Origin: Bacillus sp. Bos-x628
GTDB taxonomy: Bacteria; Bacillota; Bacilli; Bacillales; Bacillaceae
NCBI RefSeq assembly: GCF_040500475.1
Contig: NZ_CP159358.1
Location: forward strand, 248,001 to 312,000
Length of the DNA: 64,000 nt
Direction of reading: 5' to 3'
Shown: positions 3,095 through 15,894 of the stretch, one piece after another
How the letters are laid out: each line of letters starts with the position of its first letter
How positions within the stretch are numbered: the stretch's first letter is position 1
Program-made: the position numbers and the translations under genes
The notes under the pieces: generated by a model
The model's database searches: none
The model's input: only the letters and a program-made list of their open reading frames with translations
What the model was told of the DNA's origin: nothing

Positions 3095-3130
3095 AAAAGA
3101 GCTAAAATGATATTTATTTTAGCTCTTTTT
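3095..3130. terminator. Bidirectional terminator between yqgX and yqgY
   Basis: AAAAGAGCTAAAAT at 3095-3108 and its exact complement at 3116-3129 form a 14-base stem with a seven-base loop. It has A-rich and T-rich flanks and serves the two convergent genes. Confidence 0.85.
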
Positions 3131-3133
3131 CTT

Positions 3134-3376
3134 TTAATGTCCGGTACCGGGAACCATGATGAAGATCGAATAATATGTAAATCCGGCAAAGAAAATGGTT
3201 AAGTACGCACCGAAAATGTAAATATACATTCTTTCGGATAAATTCAAGTAGGATAAAAATACAAATAGAACGGTTTGACCGAAGAACAGCAAGGATGCAT
3301 CTTTCATATGTCCTAAATAGAACATCACAGCAAAAATACCCGTCCAAAAGCCAAGCACACGGAACATGCGGTTCAT
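3134..3376 (-). CDS. yqgY: Small membrane protein, DUF2626 (YqgY)
   Basis: An 80-residue protein with three hydrophobic stretches (about residues 8-22, 28-43 and 51-72). The MVPGTGH-type C-terminus is typical of DUF2626, which is restricted to Bacillus and relatives. AGGGGAGGG lies just upstream of the ATG at 3376. Function is unknown. It is divergent from mgsR, and the 214-base gap between them holds a perfect palindrome at 3437-3452. Confidence 0.75.
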   Translation of the reverse strand: MNRMFRVLGFWTGIFAVMFYLGHMKDASLLFFGQTVLFVFLSYLNLSERMYIYIFGAYLTIFFAGFTYYSIFIMVPGTGH

Positions 3377-3436
3377 TTCTTTCCCTCCCCTTTCAAAAAC
3401 CCATTTGATTCATATTATAAGCGATAGTTACTTGAT

Positions 3437-5249: not shown

Positions 5250-6320
5250 TTGTATGGTATTGAATATTTAGGACAAGATCTGCTAGAAGAAGCATGCCGA
5301 ATGAGAGCATCTGATGTGCACATTGTCCCAAGAGAAAAAGAAGCTTCGGTTTCTTTTCGAGTAGACTCAGATTTGATTCAAAAACGAATCATTGATAAAA
5401 AGAGTGGGGAGCGATTAATTGCTCATTTTAAATTTTTATCATCAATGGATATCGGTGAAAAAAGGAGACCGCAAAATGGGTCATTAGCTGTCATGCTAAG
5501 AACTGGTCAAGTCTTTGTTCGGATGTCTACATTGCCAACTGTGTATGATGAAAGTCTAGTTATTAGACTTTTACCGCAAGAACATGTGCCAGAAACCAAA
5601 TATCTCTCCTTATTCCCAAAAGCTTCCGCAAGATTATTATCGTTTCTTAATCATTCACACGGACTTATTTTATTTACTGGACCAACAAATTCAGGAAAAA
5701 CCACGACACTCTATTCGTTGATCCAATTTGCAAAAAAACACTTTAATCGAAATATTATTACGCTTGAAGATCCTGTTGAGACTAGAAATGAAGAAGTTTT
5801 ACAAGTGCAAGTAAATGAGAAAGCTGGCATTACGTATGCGGCAGGTTTACGAGCCATTTTAAGACATGATCCAGACATGATTGTGCTAGGTGAAATAAGA
5901 GATGCTGAAACGGCGCAAACGGCAATTAGAGCTGCGATGACTGGACATTTAGTAATGAGTACATTACATGCGAAAAATGCAAAAGGAGCCCTTTATCGAA
6001 TGCTTGAATTTGGTGTAACGCTGAATGAGATTGAACAAACAATGGTGGCGATTGCCGCACAGCGATTAATAGATATAACATGCCCTTTTTGTGGTGAAAC
6101 GTGCCAGCTTTACTGTAAATTAAACCGAACAGCCAGACGTACAAATGTGTTTGAACTGCTGTACGGAAAAGAGCTTAGTGAGTGTATAAAAGAAGCAAAA
6201 GGAGAACACGCTCATGCATCATATGAAACACTGCAAAGATTAATTCGAAAAGGAGTTGCGCTTGGCTATTTATCTAAAAACACCTATCATCGCTGGGTTT
6301 ATGAAGAATCGACACTATAA
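5250..6320 (+). CDS. comGA: Competence traffic ATPase ComGA
   Basis: First gene of the comG operon; a cytosolic GspE/PilB-type secretion ATPase that drives assembly of the transformation pseudopilus. It shows the Walker A GPTNSGKTTT, an Asp box (ITLEDPVE), Walker B (MIVLGEIRDAET) and the His box (MSTLHAKNAKGA). The family commonly has GPTGSGKT, so the Asn in the loop is a small deviation. The TTG at 5250 is eight bases after AAAGGAG and gives 356 residues, the B. subtilis length. A GTG at 5241 overlaps the ribosome site. Upstream DNA at 5110-5195 is A/T-tract rich, as expected for ComK control, but I could not fit clean AAAA-N5-TTTT boxes. Confidence 0.9.
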   Translation: MYGIEYLGQDLLEEACRMRASDVHIVPREKEASVSFRVDSDLIQKRIIDKKSGERLIAHFKFLSSMDIGEKRRPQNGSLAVMLRTGQVFVRMSTLPTVYDESLVIRLLPQEHVPETKYLSLFPKASARLLSFLNHSHGLILFTGPTNSGKTTTLYSLIQFAKKHFNRNIITLEDPVETRNEEVLQVQVNEKAGITYAAGLRAILRHDPDMIVLGEIRDAETAQTAIRAAMTGHLVMSTLHAKNAKGALYRMLEFGVTLNEIEQTMVAIAAQRLIDITCPFCGETCQLYCKLNRTARRTNVFELLYGKELSECIKEAKGEHAHASYETLQRLIRKGVALGYLSKNTYHRWVYEESTL

Positions 6321-7341
6321 AGCATGGTCTAGAAAAGAACAAGCTGAATTTCTATCGAAACTTGGCCAATTAATTCAATCTGGATATACATTGATTGATG
6401 CACTAACGATGATGAATATTCAGTTAACAGAGAAACAAAATCACCTATTAACAAAAGGAATTCAGTGGTTGATTGAAGGAGAACCATTTTATCTTGTTTT
6501 AGAGAAGCTGTGCTTTCAACGAGAGGTCATTGCGATTCTCTGTTTTTCAGAGAAGCATGGCAGTCTGTCACGTGCTTTAGAACAAAGTTCACTATTCTTA
6601 GAAAAAAAGCTCGTACAAATGGATACGATGAAACGCATGTTACGGTACCCGATCTTCCTCATGTTTACGGTGGGGGTTGTTCTCACACTCGTTCAACAGA
6701 TGATCATACCTCAATTTTCTCTTTTGTATTCCTCTATGGACACCCAAGCATCTTGGTTGATTCAAGGGATGTTTAGCACCTTTCAATTTTTACATTATTT
6801 CTTGATTACAATCGGTGGTGTAAGTATCTGTCTCGCTGGATATTATTATCTCTGTTTTAAGAAAAAAACTGCACTTGAGAAACTGAGAATGATGAGCCGG
6901 CTGCCGATCATGTATAAAGGGATGCAGCTGATGCATACCTATCTTTTTTCCCTTCAACTAAGTGGTCTTCTTCAGGCTGGATTATCTGTATATGAAAGCT
7001 TACAAGCCTTCAAACAGCAAAATTATTTACCCTTTCTTCAAGAGATATCTGAACAGATGATCAAAGATTTAAGAAAAGGAGAGACAATGGAAGCTCAAAT
7101 AGGTCAGTATCCTTTTTTCGAAAGACATTTCGCAGCAGTGATCAAGCATGGTGAAGCAAGCGGGATGCTTGCGAGAGAACTTTACACATACAGTCAGTTT
7201 TTATTAGAGAATGCAGAGTTGAAAATTGAAAAATGGGTTTTATGGTTGCAGCCAGTGATTTATGGTTTGACAGCACTGCTCATTTTAATCGTGTATTTAT
7301 CCATTCTTTTACCTATGTATCAACTGATGGATCAAGTGTAA
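6301..7341 (+). CDS. comGB: Competence pseudopilus inner-membrane protein ComGB
   Basis: A 346-residue GspF/PilC-like polytopic protein. Two repeated cytosolic domains are each followed by membrane helices (about residues 115-145, 160-185 and 310-340). Family motifs such as LRYPIFLM, SLQLSGLLQAG and HGEASGMLARELY are present. It anchors ComGA and the growing pseudopilus. The ATG at 6301 overlaps the end of comGA by 20 bases and has only weak Shine-Dalgarno potential, so translational coupling is likely. An upstream in-frame start at 6256 would add 15 residues. Confidence 0.85.
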   Translation: MKNRHYKAWSRKEQAEFLSKLGQLIQSGYTLIDALTMMNIQLTEKQNHLLTKGIQWLIEGEPFYLVLEKLCFQREVIAILCFSEKHGSLSRALEQSSLFLEKKLVQMDTMKRMLRYPIFLMFTVGVVLTLVQQMIIPQFSLLYSSMDTQASWLIQGMFSTFQFLHYFLITIGGVSICLAGYYYLCFKKKTALEKLRMMSRLPIMYKGMQLMHTYLFSLQLSGLLQAGLSVYESLQAFKQQNYLPFLQEISEQMIKDLRKGETMEAQIGQYPFFERHFAAVIKHGEASGMLARELYTYSQFLLENAELKIEKWVLWLQPVIYGLTALLILIVYLSILLPMYQLMDQV

Positions 7342-9916: not shown

Positions 9917-10042
9917 AAAAGAACGAGAAAATGGAAGAATTTTCTCGTAAAAGTTCTCGTTTAAGAACATAATGGACTAATTTGACGTTTTGGATTTTAT
10001 CAGTATTTCCTTATACTGAGCTTAACCGTTCTTTTTAAAGAA
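9917..10042 (+). promoter_or_regulatory. tapA operon control region with SinR-type boxes
   Basis: Several copies of the SinR consensus GTTCTYT are present: AAAAGAAC (9917-9924, reverse), GTTCTCGT (9953-9960), AAGAAC (9963-9968, reverse) and GTTCTTTTTAAAGAA (10028-10042). The last can be read as a palindrome. A possible sigma-A promoter is TTGGAT at 9990-9995 with TATACT at 10012-10017 (spacing 16). The boxes flank it, as expected for repression by SinR, which is encoded at 12139-12474. The control region is thus kept although two of the three genes it serves are broken. Confidence 0.6.
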
Positions 10043-10059
10043 TATTTTTAGAAGAACAG

Positions 10060-10599
10060 TTGTTCAAGGAGTTGAAGAAATTGATGAAACAAGCGCTCTT
10101 TGTTCTCTTTTGTGTCATGAGCTTGATATTCATGTCTCACTGACACCTACATACGCTTCTTTTAATGATGTGGAGCAATCAAACTATATGACGAAAACAT
10201 GTGAGAGTTTTGAGCAAACAGATCAGCATTGTCAGCCTAAGAAATAGGATAAAAGTGATGTGAAGCTAATAGACCAGACGACAATCAAGGAAACGGTTTG
10301 TGCGCCGCATAAGCTAAGTATCACACTTCAAAATATTGGACGAACACTGACACATTTTGAATGGACGTGGGAGCTTCACAAAGTAGCAAGTGAGAAGAAG
10401 CCTTTACAAGATGGTGAAAAGGGATCAGCACCCAACTTTTGATCAAAATAATCGACGATTATTACCTCAGAAAAAGGAAAAACGAATGGAATTTATGCTT
10501 TTTAAAATCTATTATCTAAAGGATTTAGCGTATCTAATAAAACGTTTTTATGGTTTAAACAAATGCAGCTTTCCCAGGTGTCATGAAAAGGTGACCTAA
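10060..10599 (+). pseudogene. tapA: tapA pseudogene (amyloid fibre assembly/anchor protein)
   Basis: Fragments of TapA in different frames. A hydrophobic leader piece begins about 10060-10084 (KQALFVLFCVMSL) and stops at a TGA near 10141. In another frame follow YASFNDVEQSN, TCESFEQTDQHC and then TAG at 10245-10247. This TAG sits where B. subtilis TapA has a Trp (KRWDQSD against KK-stop-DKSD). The same frame continues with DQTTIKETVC and FEWTWELHK to a stop at 10442. A further frameshift brings the remnant of the GIYAFKVY region near 10490-10530. Only short open frames (10260-10442 and 10390-10599) remain, so no full TapA can be made. The C-terminal tail of the B. subtilis protein is not found. 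Confidence 0.85.
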
Positions 10600-10632
10600 A
10601 TCGGGCTGCTTCCATAAAAGGAGAGAAGTATC

Positions 10633-11211
10633 TTGGAAAAATGGGTGAAAATGACCGGAAGTATTCTTTATGTCATTGTTTTCACAGGGATGATTGCATT
10701 TATTATTGTGTTGCTGTCATCAAGAACAGCAGGTGGAGATCCGCAAATTTTTGGTTCTCAGTTTAAGCAAGTGTTATCCGGCTCGATGGAACCAGAGTTC
10801 TCTCTTGGTTCACTGATTGTAGTAAAAGATATGACATTACCTGATGCTCTCAAGGCAGGGGATATTATGACGTTTCAAACAAAACATGATCAGGAAGTAT
10901 CCTTTGTGACCCATCGAATTGTTGATGTGGAAGGAAATGGGATAAGCAAGACCTTCGAGACTAAAGGGGATCACAATAGTTTTCAAAATGGGACGCTGGT
11001 CAAAGCAAATCAAGTCGTTGCACAGGACACAAGAATTGAAATCCCTTATGCCGGAAAGCTTCTTTCATATGCCGGTACGGCAGTTGGAACAGCTCTGCTG
11101 CTCATTATACCAGGTGTCATGCTGCTAGTTTACTCTGCGCTTCATTTTGTTCGCGCCGCGAAGAATCGAAGGCGTGCGAATGATTTACAAATGTCAGAGA
11201 AACAAGCATAA
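10633..11211 (+). CDS. sipW: ER-type signal peptidase I SipW
   Basis: A 192-residue membrane peptidase that in B. subtilis processes TapA and TasA. An N-terminal helix (about residues 10-30) is followed by the catalytic SGSMEP (Ser51), VTHRI (His94, replacing the Lys of ordinary bacterial enzymes) and KGDHN (Asp113). A second hydrophobic helix spans residues 147-168, with a basic tail. The frame is intact and all catalytic residues are present. The TTG at 10633 follows AAAGGAGAGA. It lies between the broken tapA and tasA, so both known substrates are lost. B. subtilis SipW is also reported to have a peptidase-independent role in surface-attached biofilm formation. Confidence 0.93.
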   Translation: MEKWVKMTGSILYVIVFTGMIAFIIVLLSSRTAGGDPQIFGSQFKQVLSGSMEPEFSLGSLIVVKDMTLPDALKAGDIMTFQTKHDQEVSFVTHRIVDVEGNGISKTFETKGDHNSFQNGTLVKANQVVAQDTRIEIPYAGKLLSYAGTAVGTALLLIIPGVMLLVYSALHFVRAAKNRRRANDLQMSEKQA

Positions 11212-11267
11212 ATTTTTCGTTTGTAACTGAGTCAGGTTTCAATAAAACAATTAATGAGGGGGCATTC

Positions 11268-12070
11268 ATGGCAATCAAAAAATCAATTCGTTTAGGTGTA
11301 TTATCAGGGGATTAGGACTGGATTTAATTGGCGGGGTAACTTGGGCTGCTTTTAATGATATCGAAAAGGCAAATGCAGTCTGCTACTCTACAGGGGAGCT
11401 AGATTTATCTCTACAAGAATACCCTGGTGCTATTCACCTTGCAAACTTAAAACCTGGTGACCGTATGAGGAAGGAATTTAACTTTGAAAATAAGGGGTCA
11501 CTTGCAATAAACCAAGTACTGATGAGTCTTGATGATTGTCAGTTTAAAGATGGAACTTCTGCAAAGAAAGGCGAGAAAAATTCAGCGGAAGAATGCCTCA
11601 GCCAATTCCAAGTTAGTGTGCTCACGGTTGGAGCTGAAGGTGGGAATGTTTATCTCCGAAATATCATTTTAGATCATGCGAACCTGATTAACTTGTATCT
11701 GTTAACTTCAAAACAGGATCAGGCGGCATAAGAGAAGCTTCGTCATGCCGTCGATAAGAAGTTTTTACATGAAAATGGTAAAATCAATGTAGCAACCGTT
11801 GATGGAACAACGGCTCCAGAGTATGACGGCATTTTAAAGAACCTATTTGATTACGATAAAATGGAAATGATCATTGAATTTGTCAATGACCAGACGAAGG
11901 ATAAAGATGGCGACTATATCCAAAATAAATACCAAGGCGATGCGATTCAAATTGATCTTTCCTTCGAAGCGACTCAGTGGAATGGTTTCACGATCAATCC
12001 CAAAAAGCATACGGATGAAAAAGGCTATGTGAAAGAAAACGAAAAAGCACACAGCGACGATAAAAAATAA
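11268..12070 (+). pseudogene. tasA: tasA pseudogene (major biofilm amyloid protein)
   Basis: The whole length of TasA can be recognised but is interrupted twice. From the ATG at 11268 (after GAGGGGG) the frame reads MAIKKSIRLGVLSGD and stops at TAG 11313-11315. The true frame resumes one shift away near the GGGG run at 11307-11310 with GLDLIGGVTWAAFND, then NLKPGDR, FNFENKGSLAI and LTVGAEGGN. An in-frame TAA at 11729-11731 interrupts it. The same frame then continues past the stop with KINVATVDG, QNKYQGD, LSFEATQWNG and GYVKENEKAHSDDKK to TAA at 12070. No functional TasA is expected. The long stretches still alike to TasA suggest recent loss. Confidence 0.9.
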
Positions 12071-12112: not shown

Positions 12113-12147
12113 GAGGAGTATGCGCTAAAACGAGCGCTTTACTCCTC
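12113..12147. terminator. Hairpin between tasA remnant and sinR
   Basis: GAGGAGTA and TACTCCTC arms with an inner GCGCT/AGCGC pairing overlap the sinR stop region. There is no strong T-run on either strand. A smaller hairpin (GCAGTC/GACTGC) lies at 12073-12089. Together they probably separate the convergent units. The terminator function is inferred. Confidence 0.4.
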
Positions 12148-12474
12148 TTCTTGCTGTTTTTTCCAGATTTGATAATCTAAAAATTCACGAAATTGCTTTT
12201 TCGAAACCCCTGATGTCATTGCATCTCGAACTAGTTTTTCCCATTCACTATCTAATTGACCATCGTATTCGGTTTCATCTTTTTCGTTTAACAGTGTATG
12301 AACCGAGACGTCCAGAACAGCGGAGACTTTTTCAAGAAATTGAATGGAGGGGTTTGTTTGCAAGTTTCTTTCTATTGAACTTAAATAAGACTTCGCTACC
12401 CCAGCCTTTTCGGCCAGTTCTGATAGTGAGTAGCCTTTTTCATTGCGGTATTGTTTAATACGCTGGCCAATCAA
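12139..12474 (-). CDS. sinR: Biofilm master repressor SinR
   Basis: A 111-residue DNA-binding protein. An N-terminal helix-turn-helix (residues about 2-60, with SLSELAEKAGVAKSYLSSIE) is followed by a C-terminal SinI-type dimerisation domain (DSEWEKLVRDAMTSG). It is nearly identical in recalled sequence to B. subtilis SinR. The TTG at 12474 was chosen: it is eight bases after GGAAGG and gives IGQRIKQY at residue 2 and the B. subtilis length. An ATG two codons earlier is too close to the ribosome site. SinR represses the matrix operons (eps, tapA) and is antagonised by SinI, encoded just upstream. Confidence 0.93.
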   Translation of the reverse strand: MIGQRIKQYRNEKGYSLSELAEKAGVAKSYLSSIERNLQTNPSIQFLEKVSAVLDVSVHTLLNEKDETEYDGQLDSEWEKLVRDAMTSGVSKKQFREFLDYQIWKKQQEEE

Positions 12475-12533
12475 TGTCATCACCTTCCTTTCGATATTAT
12501 AGCACATTCAGAAAGGTTTGATAGAATGACTTC

Positions 12534-12671
12534 TTACAGTGGGAGAGACTCAGAGGACTTTTGGTGCGATTTGAGAAAATGACGGACTTCTTCGACTGTT
12601 AGTCCTGCTTTACGAGCTTCGGTTAATAACTGAACCCATTCACTGTCTAGCTTTTTCATTTCCTTTTCCAT
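12534..12671 (-). CDS. sinI: SinR antagonist SinI
   Basis: A 45-residue protein, MEKEMKKLDSEWVQLL..., read directly on the minus strand. It consists of the SinI dimerisation module LDSEWVQLLTEARKAG, VEEVRHFL and a short tail. It pairs with the matching domain of SinR and strips SinR from DNA. AGGAGGT lies just before the ATG. The gap to the sinR start is about 60 bases and holds no clear terminator, so sinI-sinR form one unit. In B. subtilis its promoter is activated by phosphorylated Spo0A, which is encoded at 46404-47204. I could not pin a convincing 0A box in the 184-base region upstream. Confidence 0.92.
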   Translation of the reverse strand: MEKEMKKLDSEWVQLLTEARKAGLTVEEVRHFLKSHQKSSESLPL

Positions 12672-15398: not shown

Positions 15399-15589
15399 TT
15401 TTTAAGAGGACTTTAAAAGTCTGCATATAACGATAAAAGCGAACGATAGTGAATAATTATTTTAAAAATGTTAATGATTTTTATATTGCTCTCTATCCGT
15501 TTCTAATGGTAGGATGTTGTTAAGTGATCTAGAAAATCAGTCACTCATTTTGATAGTATGTCCAATAAATATGAAGAATATGAGCGGAT

Positions 15590-15790
15590 GATGGTATGGG
15601 GAGAGACTTGGCGGTTATTCAGCACTGGCAGGCGCCGAAGGAGCAAGCTGAAATGGTTCAGTGAATCTCTCAGGCAAAAGTACTCTTACCGGACGCAACT
15701 CTGGAGAGTGTTTGCTCATTGCTTTAGCAAACCACCAAAGGGGAAAACGCACAATGATGCTGTGCTGTAAACTTTCAGGTGCAAGGACAG
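15590..15790 (+). ncRNA. Tandem glycine riboswitch (gcvT leader)
   Basis: Two aptamers in a row. The first, about 15595-15680, has the core GGGGAGA, GGCGCCGAAGGAGCAAGC and CTCAGGCAAAAG. The second, about 15680-15785, has TACCGGACG, CTCTGGAGAG, ACCACCAAAGGGG and TTTCAGGTGCAAGGACAG. The layout matches the cooperative glycine sensor in front of Bacillus gcvT. Glycine binding prevents the terminator that follows, so the glycine cleavage operon is on when glycine is plentiful. The whole stretch from 15399 to 15894 has no gene. Confidence 0.95.
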
Positions 15791-15830
15791 AGACTTCTTT
15801 TTGATAAAAGGGAGCCCTCTGTCCTTTTTT
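15783..15830 (+). terminator. Riboswitch-controlled terminator before gcvT
   Basis: AAGGACAGAG at 15783-15792 pairs with CTCTGTCCTT at 15817-15826, followed by T residues. The left arm overlaps the end of the second aptamer, which is how ligand binding can block hairpin formation. Confidence 0.85.
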
Positions 15831-15894
15831 GCTGTAATTTTTCTGAAAATTCAGCTTGTGTTTCGCACTGTAAGAAAAAAGGGGGAAACGATTG

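Follow-up and report, generated by a model that had tools for sequence, protein, structure and literature searches.

The stretch of DNA analysed here (the window, 64,000 nucleotides, C1:248001-312000) belongs to the genome of Bacillus sp. Bos-x628, which comprises 3.33 Mb in three contigs, and harbours the remains of a tapA-sipW-tasA operon next to sinR and a sinI-like frame (Table 1). As in the operon of B. subtilis and the B. pumilus group, the genes stand in the order tapA, sipW, tasA, SinR-box-like motifs lie upstream and sinR/sinI-like genes are neighbours; moreover, the pieces match the NCBIfam models for TapA and TasA and the open frame matches the SipW model. In contrast to that operon, tapA and tasA are pseudogenes in the window, and sipW starts with TTG and carries Asn119 as well as private changes. 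Over the window, nucleotide identity is 85.65% to the relative G008 and 84.97% to the relative G003, i.e. the genome represents a separate species, and in a tree based on the operon, yqzG and sinR the window groups with G008 (locus L024) with a support of 100. The reference set consisted of 14 loci of the pumilus group, a label based on the named relatives L002-L007; in all 14 the three genes are open, their TapA, SipW and TasA codons being present and stop-free. A plasmid collection searched with the locus yielded no match, and neither the titles and opening parts of abstracts listed from the open-licence literature nor passages of PMC10438812 describe the locus as pseudogenes.

Table 1. Features of the tapA-sipW-tasA locus, with positions counted in the window
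Feature	Position	Strand	Basis and remarks
Region 5' of tapA, SinR-box-like motifs	9918..10060	+	Motif and alignment
tapA pseudogene	10084..10590	+	Alignment to pumilus-group loci, NCBIfam
sipW, open 192-codon frame, TTG start	10633..11211	+	S51, H94, D113 present; Asn119; K2E, V27L, Y42S, G134R
tasA pseudogene	11268..12070	+	Alignment, family models
sinR, open	12139..12507	-	98-99% identity to G003 and G008; name by resemblance
sinI-like 45-aa frame, open	12534..12671	-	Name by resemblance and position

Upstream of tapA the motif GTTCT(C/T) is found at 9953 and 10028 and (A/G)AGAAC at 9919, 9963 and 10052, all of them resembling the SinR box consensus. The palindrome 9953-9968 and the motif at 10028 are common to five aligned relatives, and the SinR-box-like motif at 10052 sits inside a window-specific insertion.

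The leader frame of tapA starts with the ATG at 10084 and runs, via a 4-bp deletion, into a TGA at 10141, which bears out the frameshift after the leader reported in the first-pass annotation of this DNA. The same holds for the stop at a conserved Trp, as the codon aligned to TAG 10245 encodes Trp in the four relatives displayed, and for a further frameshift, since small indels are found at or before TAA 10503 and TGA 10584. These two stops, together with TAG 10245, TGA 10440 and TAA 10449, interrupt the main frame, which has also suffered an in-frame 9-bp deletion. The damage had even been undercounted, tapA alone containing six stops, some of them reached via indels. The fragments flanking the breaks still match NCBIfam TapA with 18.8 and 52.6 bits. 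In tasA, the leader has suffered a 1-bp deletion, which we place near 11310 rather than near 11307 as before, and through it the frame starting with ATG 11268 ends at TAG 11313. A 3-bp insertion near 11380 is in-frame, and TAA 11729 interrupts the main frame with TasA sequence on both sides, in agreement with the earlier claim and with both the alignment and NCBIfam TasA, which the flanking fragments match with 124.7 and 127.3 bits. A TasA match is present in 43 of 44 genomes of the genus; the 42 others are all stop-free and that of the window genome contains the TAA. A second intact copy of either gene, which would have spoken against the loss, was not found by family searches of the own genome, TIGR04087 (tapA) giving one match with four stops and PF12389 (tasA) one match with a stop. 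Both genes are pseudogenes. A functional TasA fibre operon requires that their frames be open and include export signals, which is not the case here.

The sequence stems from a single assembly, and in principle the breaks might be sequencing or assembly errors in an operon that works. We consider this very improbable, as about eight frame-breaking lesions are all located in two adjacent genes, several of the stops arose by substitution, identity to B. pumilus TapA is only 57% in the tapA remnant as compared to 72-94% in the other species, and the branch-test statistic of tasA is the highest of the 67 triads described below. Moreover, nothing comparable is seen in the other genes compared. A survey covered the 77 G003 ORFs that match the window, a flag being raised by a stop, a second frame or a coverage below 0.9; nine were flagged, tapA and tasA among them. 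Five of the others were inspected: in two the stop lies only in an extension upstream of the start codon, another corresponds to a tandem glycine riboswitch and two more were judged to be non-genes; the last two are an ORF truncated at the window edge and another lacking its first 8 residues only. For G008, 16 of 78 ORFs carry raw, individually unvetted flags. General decay of the region was rejected on the G003 survey, which revealed no in-gene breaks among the other flags inspected. It is harder still to believe that the tapA and tasA fragments are in use, e.g. by reinitiation or readthrough, for even if the tasA pieces are still recognisable by NCBIfam, in both genes a frameshift plus a stop separates the leader start from the sequence of the mature protein, and several stops are spread across tapA.

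The tandem glycine riboswitch aptamers themselves occupy window positions 15588-15792 on the + strand (Rfam RF00504, 65.1 and 35.7 bits) and lie 5' of a run of genes starting near 15892.

sipW had been called intact, and this is correct as far as the frame is open and Ser51, His94 and Asp113 are present, these three being identical in all 30 rows of the SipW alignment. As a description of the gene it is incomplete, the first-pass annotation having passed over the start codon and residue 119. The start codon is TTG; in the four relatives displayed it is ATG. The window protein has six private residues, four of which (K2E, V27L, Y42S and G134R) fall on the 61 columns that are invariant in the other 29 rows, whereas the corresponding counts are 0/2 for Bacillus sp. 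NPDC093026 (P0001), 0/5 for L024 and 3/52 for 21 other pumilus-type rows pooled, six of which lack any private residue. The difference between window and pool is significant in a one-sided Fisher test (p=0.001) that treats rows as independent, which they are not. With 187.1 bits, the window SipW scores just below the curated cut-off of 190 of the NCBIfam SipW equivalog model NF046067; its relatives reach 195.5 (NPDC093026), 211.6 (L024) and 212.4 (L002). As synteny is preserved and the protein is 77% identical to B. pumilus SipW, it is still an orthologue and the low score reflects divergence, not membership in another family.

Part of this change is older than the window lineage. NPDC093026 SipW is 93% identical to that of the window and shares 20 residues with it, three of which (I79M, D119N and Y132D) are located at otherwise invariant columns, i.e. 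they predate the split of the two. Among the 18 hits of the TapA search, the clusters of which are only partly named, neither NPDC093026 nor Bacillus sp. NPDC077027 is named, and the TasA of NPDC093026 could be an unnamed member of the 175-member cluster P0022. SipW from NPDC077027 (P0009) is 64% identical to that of the window and has 21 private residues, and the TasA of this strain is 87% identical to L024 TasA.

Window SipW resembles the ER-type signal peptidases, a family comprising SipW, archaeal Sec11 and human SEC11A/C: it retains Ser51, His94 and Asp113, scores 135.2 bits with TIGR02228 (cut-off 51.85) and matches SEC11A/C chains in the PDB. It differs from them in that the second conserved Asp is replaced by Asn119. 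Asn is found here in the window and NPDC093026, Asp in 28 of the 30 rows; in another set of 26 rows, which includes one Bathyarchaeota and one Erysipelotrichaceae contig, Asp was counted by eye in 24. phmmer aligns residue 119 to the second Asp of SEC11A, presumably the Asp of its catalytic triad. Counting from Ser56 in the numbering of PMC13385932, this Asp is residue 122, and that paper names a Ser-His-Asp triad. According to PMC2913515, the eukaryal enzyme has two important Asp residues and yeast requires both, and one alone is essential in archaea. Ser52, His122 and Asp148 are given as crucial in a table row of PMC4343526; the row is labelled FlaK and cites a study that PMC2913515 classes as signal peptidase work. 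The spacing of 26 between His122 and Asp148 equals that between His96 and Asp122 in SEC11A, which suggests that, of the two Asp residues, it is the second that is essential. The active site of window SipW is thus probably impaired, as judged from its sequence.

Among proteins of the own genome, SipW-type signal peptides were detected up to E=1 only in the tapA and tasA remnants, so that the search proposed in the first-pass annotation produced none besides the two pseudogenes, and in six relatives those above the cut-off are limited to tasA and tapA. That SipW is kept for processing another, unrecognised substrate is improbable given these searches and the loss of the conserved Asp. A divergent substrate might escape the model, which is short and performs weakly on TapA: the tapA of G008 scores 12.9 bits, i.e. 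below the cut-off, and that of G021 is absent from the list. In the 68 genomes surveyed (44 of the genus and 24 of the order, related to each other and with some weak SipW matches at order level), matches to both SipW and the TasA family are present in 54, neither in 14 and one alone in none, the window genome being scored as having both via its tasA pseudogene. One genome of the genus, G027 (4.6 Mb), has neither match, and joint loss may thus have occurred in another lineage.

Selection on the three genes was assessed with codon models, and the comparison of dN/dS between sipW and the tapA and tasA remnants that had been called for gives a divided answer. In a two-ratio model with 15 taxa, ω on the window branch and in the background is 0.19 and 0.11 for sipW, 0.17 and 0.094 for the tasA pieces and 0.33 and 0.24 for the tapA pieces. 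A value of 1 along the entire window branch can be rejected both for sipW (16.5 lnL) and for the tasA pieces (19.1 lnL). A branch mixture model for the same number of taxa lets the window branch end in a neutral portion. The best estimate of this portion is 0.07 for tasA (range within 2 lnL, 0 to about 0.21) and 0.12 for sipW, where 0.07 fits almost equally well (range just above 0 to about 0.25); for tapA and the neighbour yqzG the best value is 0 (up to 0.5 and 0.25, respectively). By this model sipW is relaxed about as much as the tasA remnant, within wide limits.

The second test used triads of the window, G003 and G008. Of the 67 triads, 62 served as controls once those of the three operon genes, of sinR, which has hardly diverged, and of an ORF at 3120 that we consider a non-gene had been set aside. 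The ratio of window to background ω is 5.19 for tasA, which is unusual (1/62 controls as high), 1.98 for sipW, which is not (15/62), and 2.07 for tapA (13/62), not unusual either. Better conservation of sipW than of tasA is thus suggested by the three-genome test and not by the 15-taxon mixture, in which sipW behaves like tasA. Branch tests of this kind have low power, as tapA, which is certainly dead, escapes detection by both its ratio and its neutral part of 0. The second highest triad statistic belongs to an open, comGB-like frame at window positions 6301-7338 (+) (ratio 2.90, LRT 10.3). Window positions 3117-3431 are strongly conserved among G003, G008 and the window, and ω exceeds 1 in any reading, for which reason the stretch is probably non-coding DNA under conservation; it matches no Rfam family at gathering score.

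How long a frame such as sipW would stay open without selection was simulated on the assumption of 0.03-0.12 frameshifts per substitution. At the time fitted for tasA (0.072 changes per codon) the chance of an open frame is 0.40-0.12, and at the time fitted for sipW itself (0.12-0.18 changes per codon; simulation rows 0.109 to 0.177) it is about 0.26-0.005, i.e. the open frame is at most mild evidence for retention.

sipW is open yet bears signs of relaxed constraint. In our view the operon is probably no longer maintained, with sipW being a relic whose frame has so far escaped interruption by neutral change. Maintenance of tapA-sipW-tasA would have ended on the window lineage, and any SipW still made would probably be poorly translated, is predicted to be a weak or dead peptidase and would have no known substrate left. 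The first-pass annotation had left open whether sipW is decaying last or serves another job; the former is now better supported by the TTG start, the private changes, the score below 190 and the tasA-like relaxed time, as well as by the lack of other SipW-type signal peptides and of any genome with SipW or TasA alone, and the latter is weakened, not refuted. Two results argue mildly against a relic, namely the triad test, which shows no unusual relaxation of sipW, and the low probability that the frame is open by chance. More generally, the case of sipW illustrates that an open frame with the Ser/His/Asp set is by itself not evidence of a maintained enzyme.

SipW has reportedly been described as a bifunctional peptidase, and a regulatory function in matrix gene expression is cited in PMC9486643. 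SipW might be kept as a pseudoenzyme on account of the regulatory role, independent of peptidase activity, that it is reported to play in surface biofilms; we regard this as unlikely, if the strongest of the alternatives. It would agree with the open frame and its mildly improbable survival by chance, with the weaker relaxation of sipW than of tasA in the triads and with open EpsG, BslA and SinR genes, and Asn119 in both the window and NPDC093026 would fit a protein that was retained after catalysis was lost. Against it stand the TTG start and the private changes at invariant columns, the relaxed-time estimate resembling that of tasA, and the absence, among the 68 genomes, of any that matches SipW and not the TasA family. 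A little less likely again is the more specific idea that both the window lineage and NPDC093026 lost the catalytic Asp and kept a peptidase-dead SipW for regulation after substrate loss. If true, such a protein would constitute a natural separation of the two reported functions of SipW.

The sipW remnant makes the proposed peptidase-independent role testable where the known substrates are already absent, and the natural loss of the TasA fibre genes in one pumilus-group species with EpsG, BslA and SinR genes open offers a test of how far biofilms work without TasA. The EpsG and BslA genes are open in the own genome, and the matrix, if made, would rest on exopolysaccharide and BslA without TasA fibres. 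The eps-like operon, at locus L064 (4566-18396; G000 C1 2680566-2694396), consists of 13 consecutive open frames; by the B. subtilis gene order an EpsJ-like frame would stand between the pyruvyl-transferase-like and flippase-like frames, and at this locus it was not seen.
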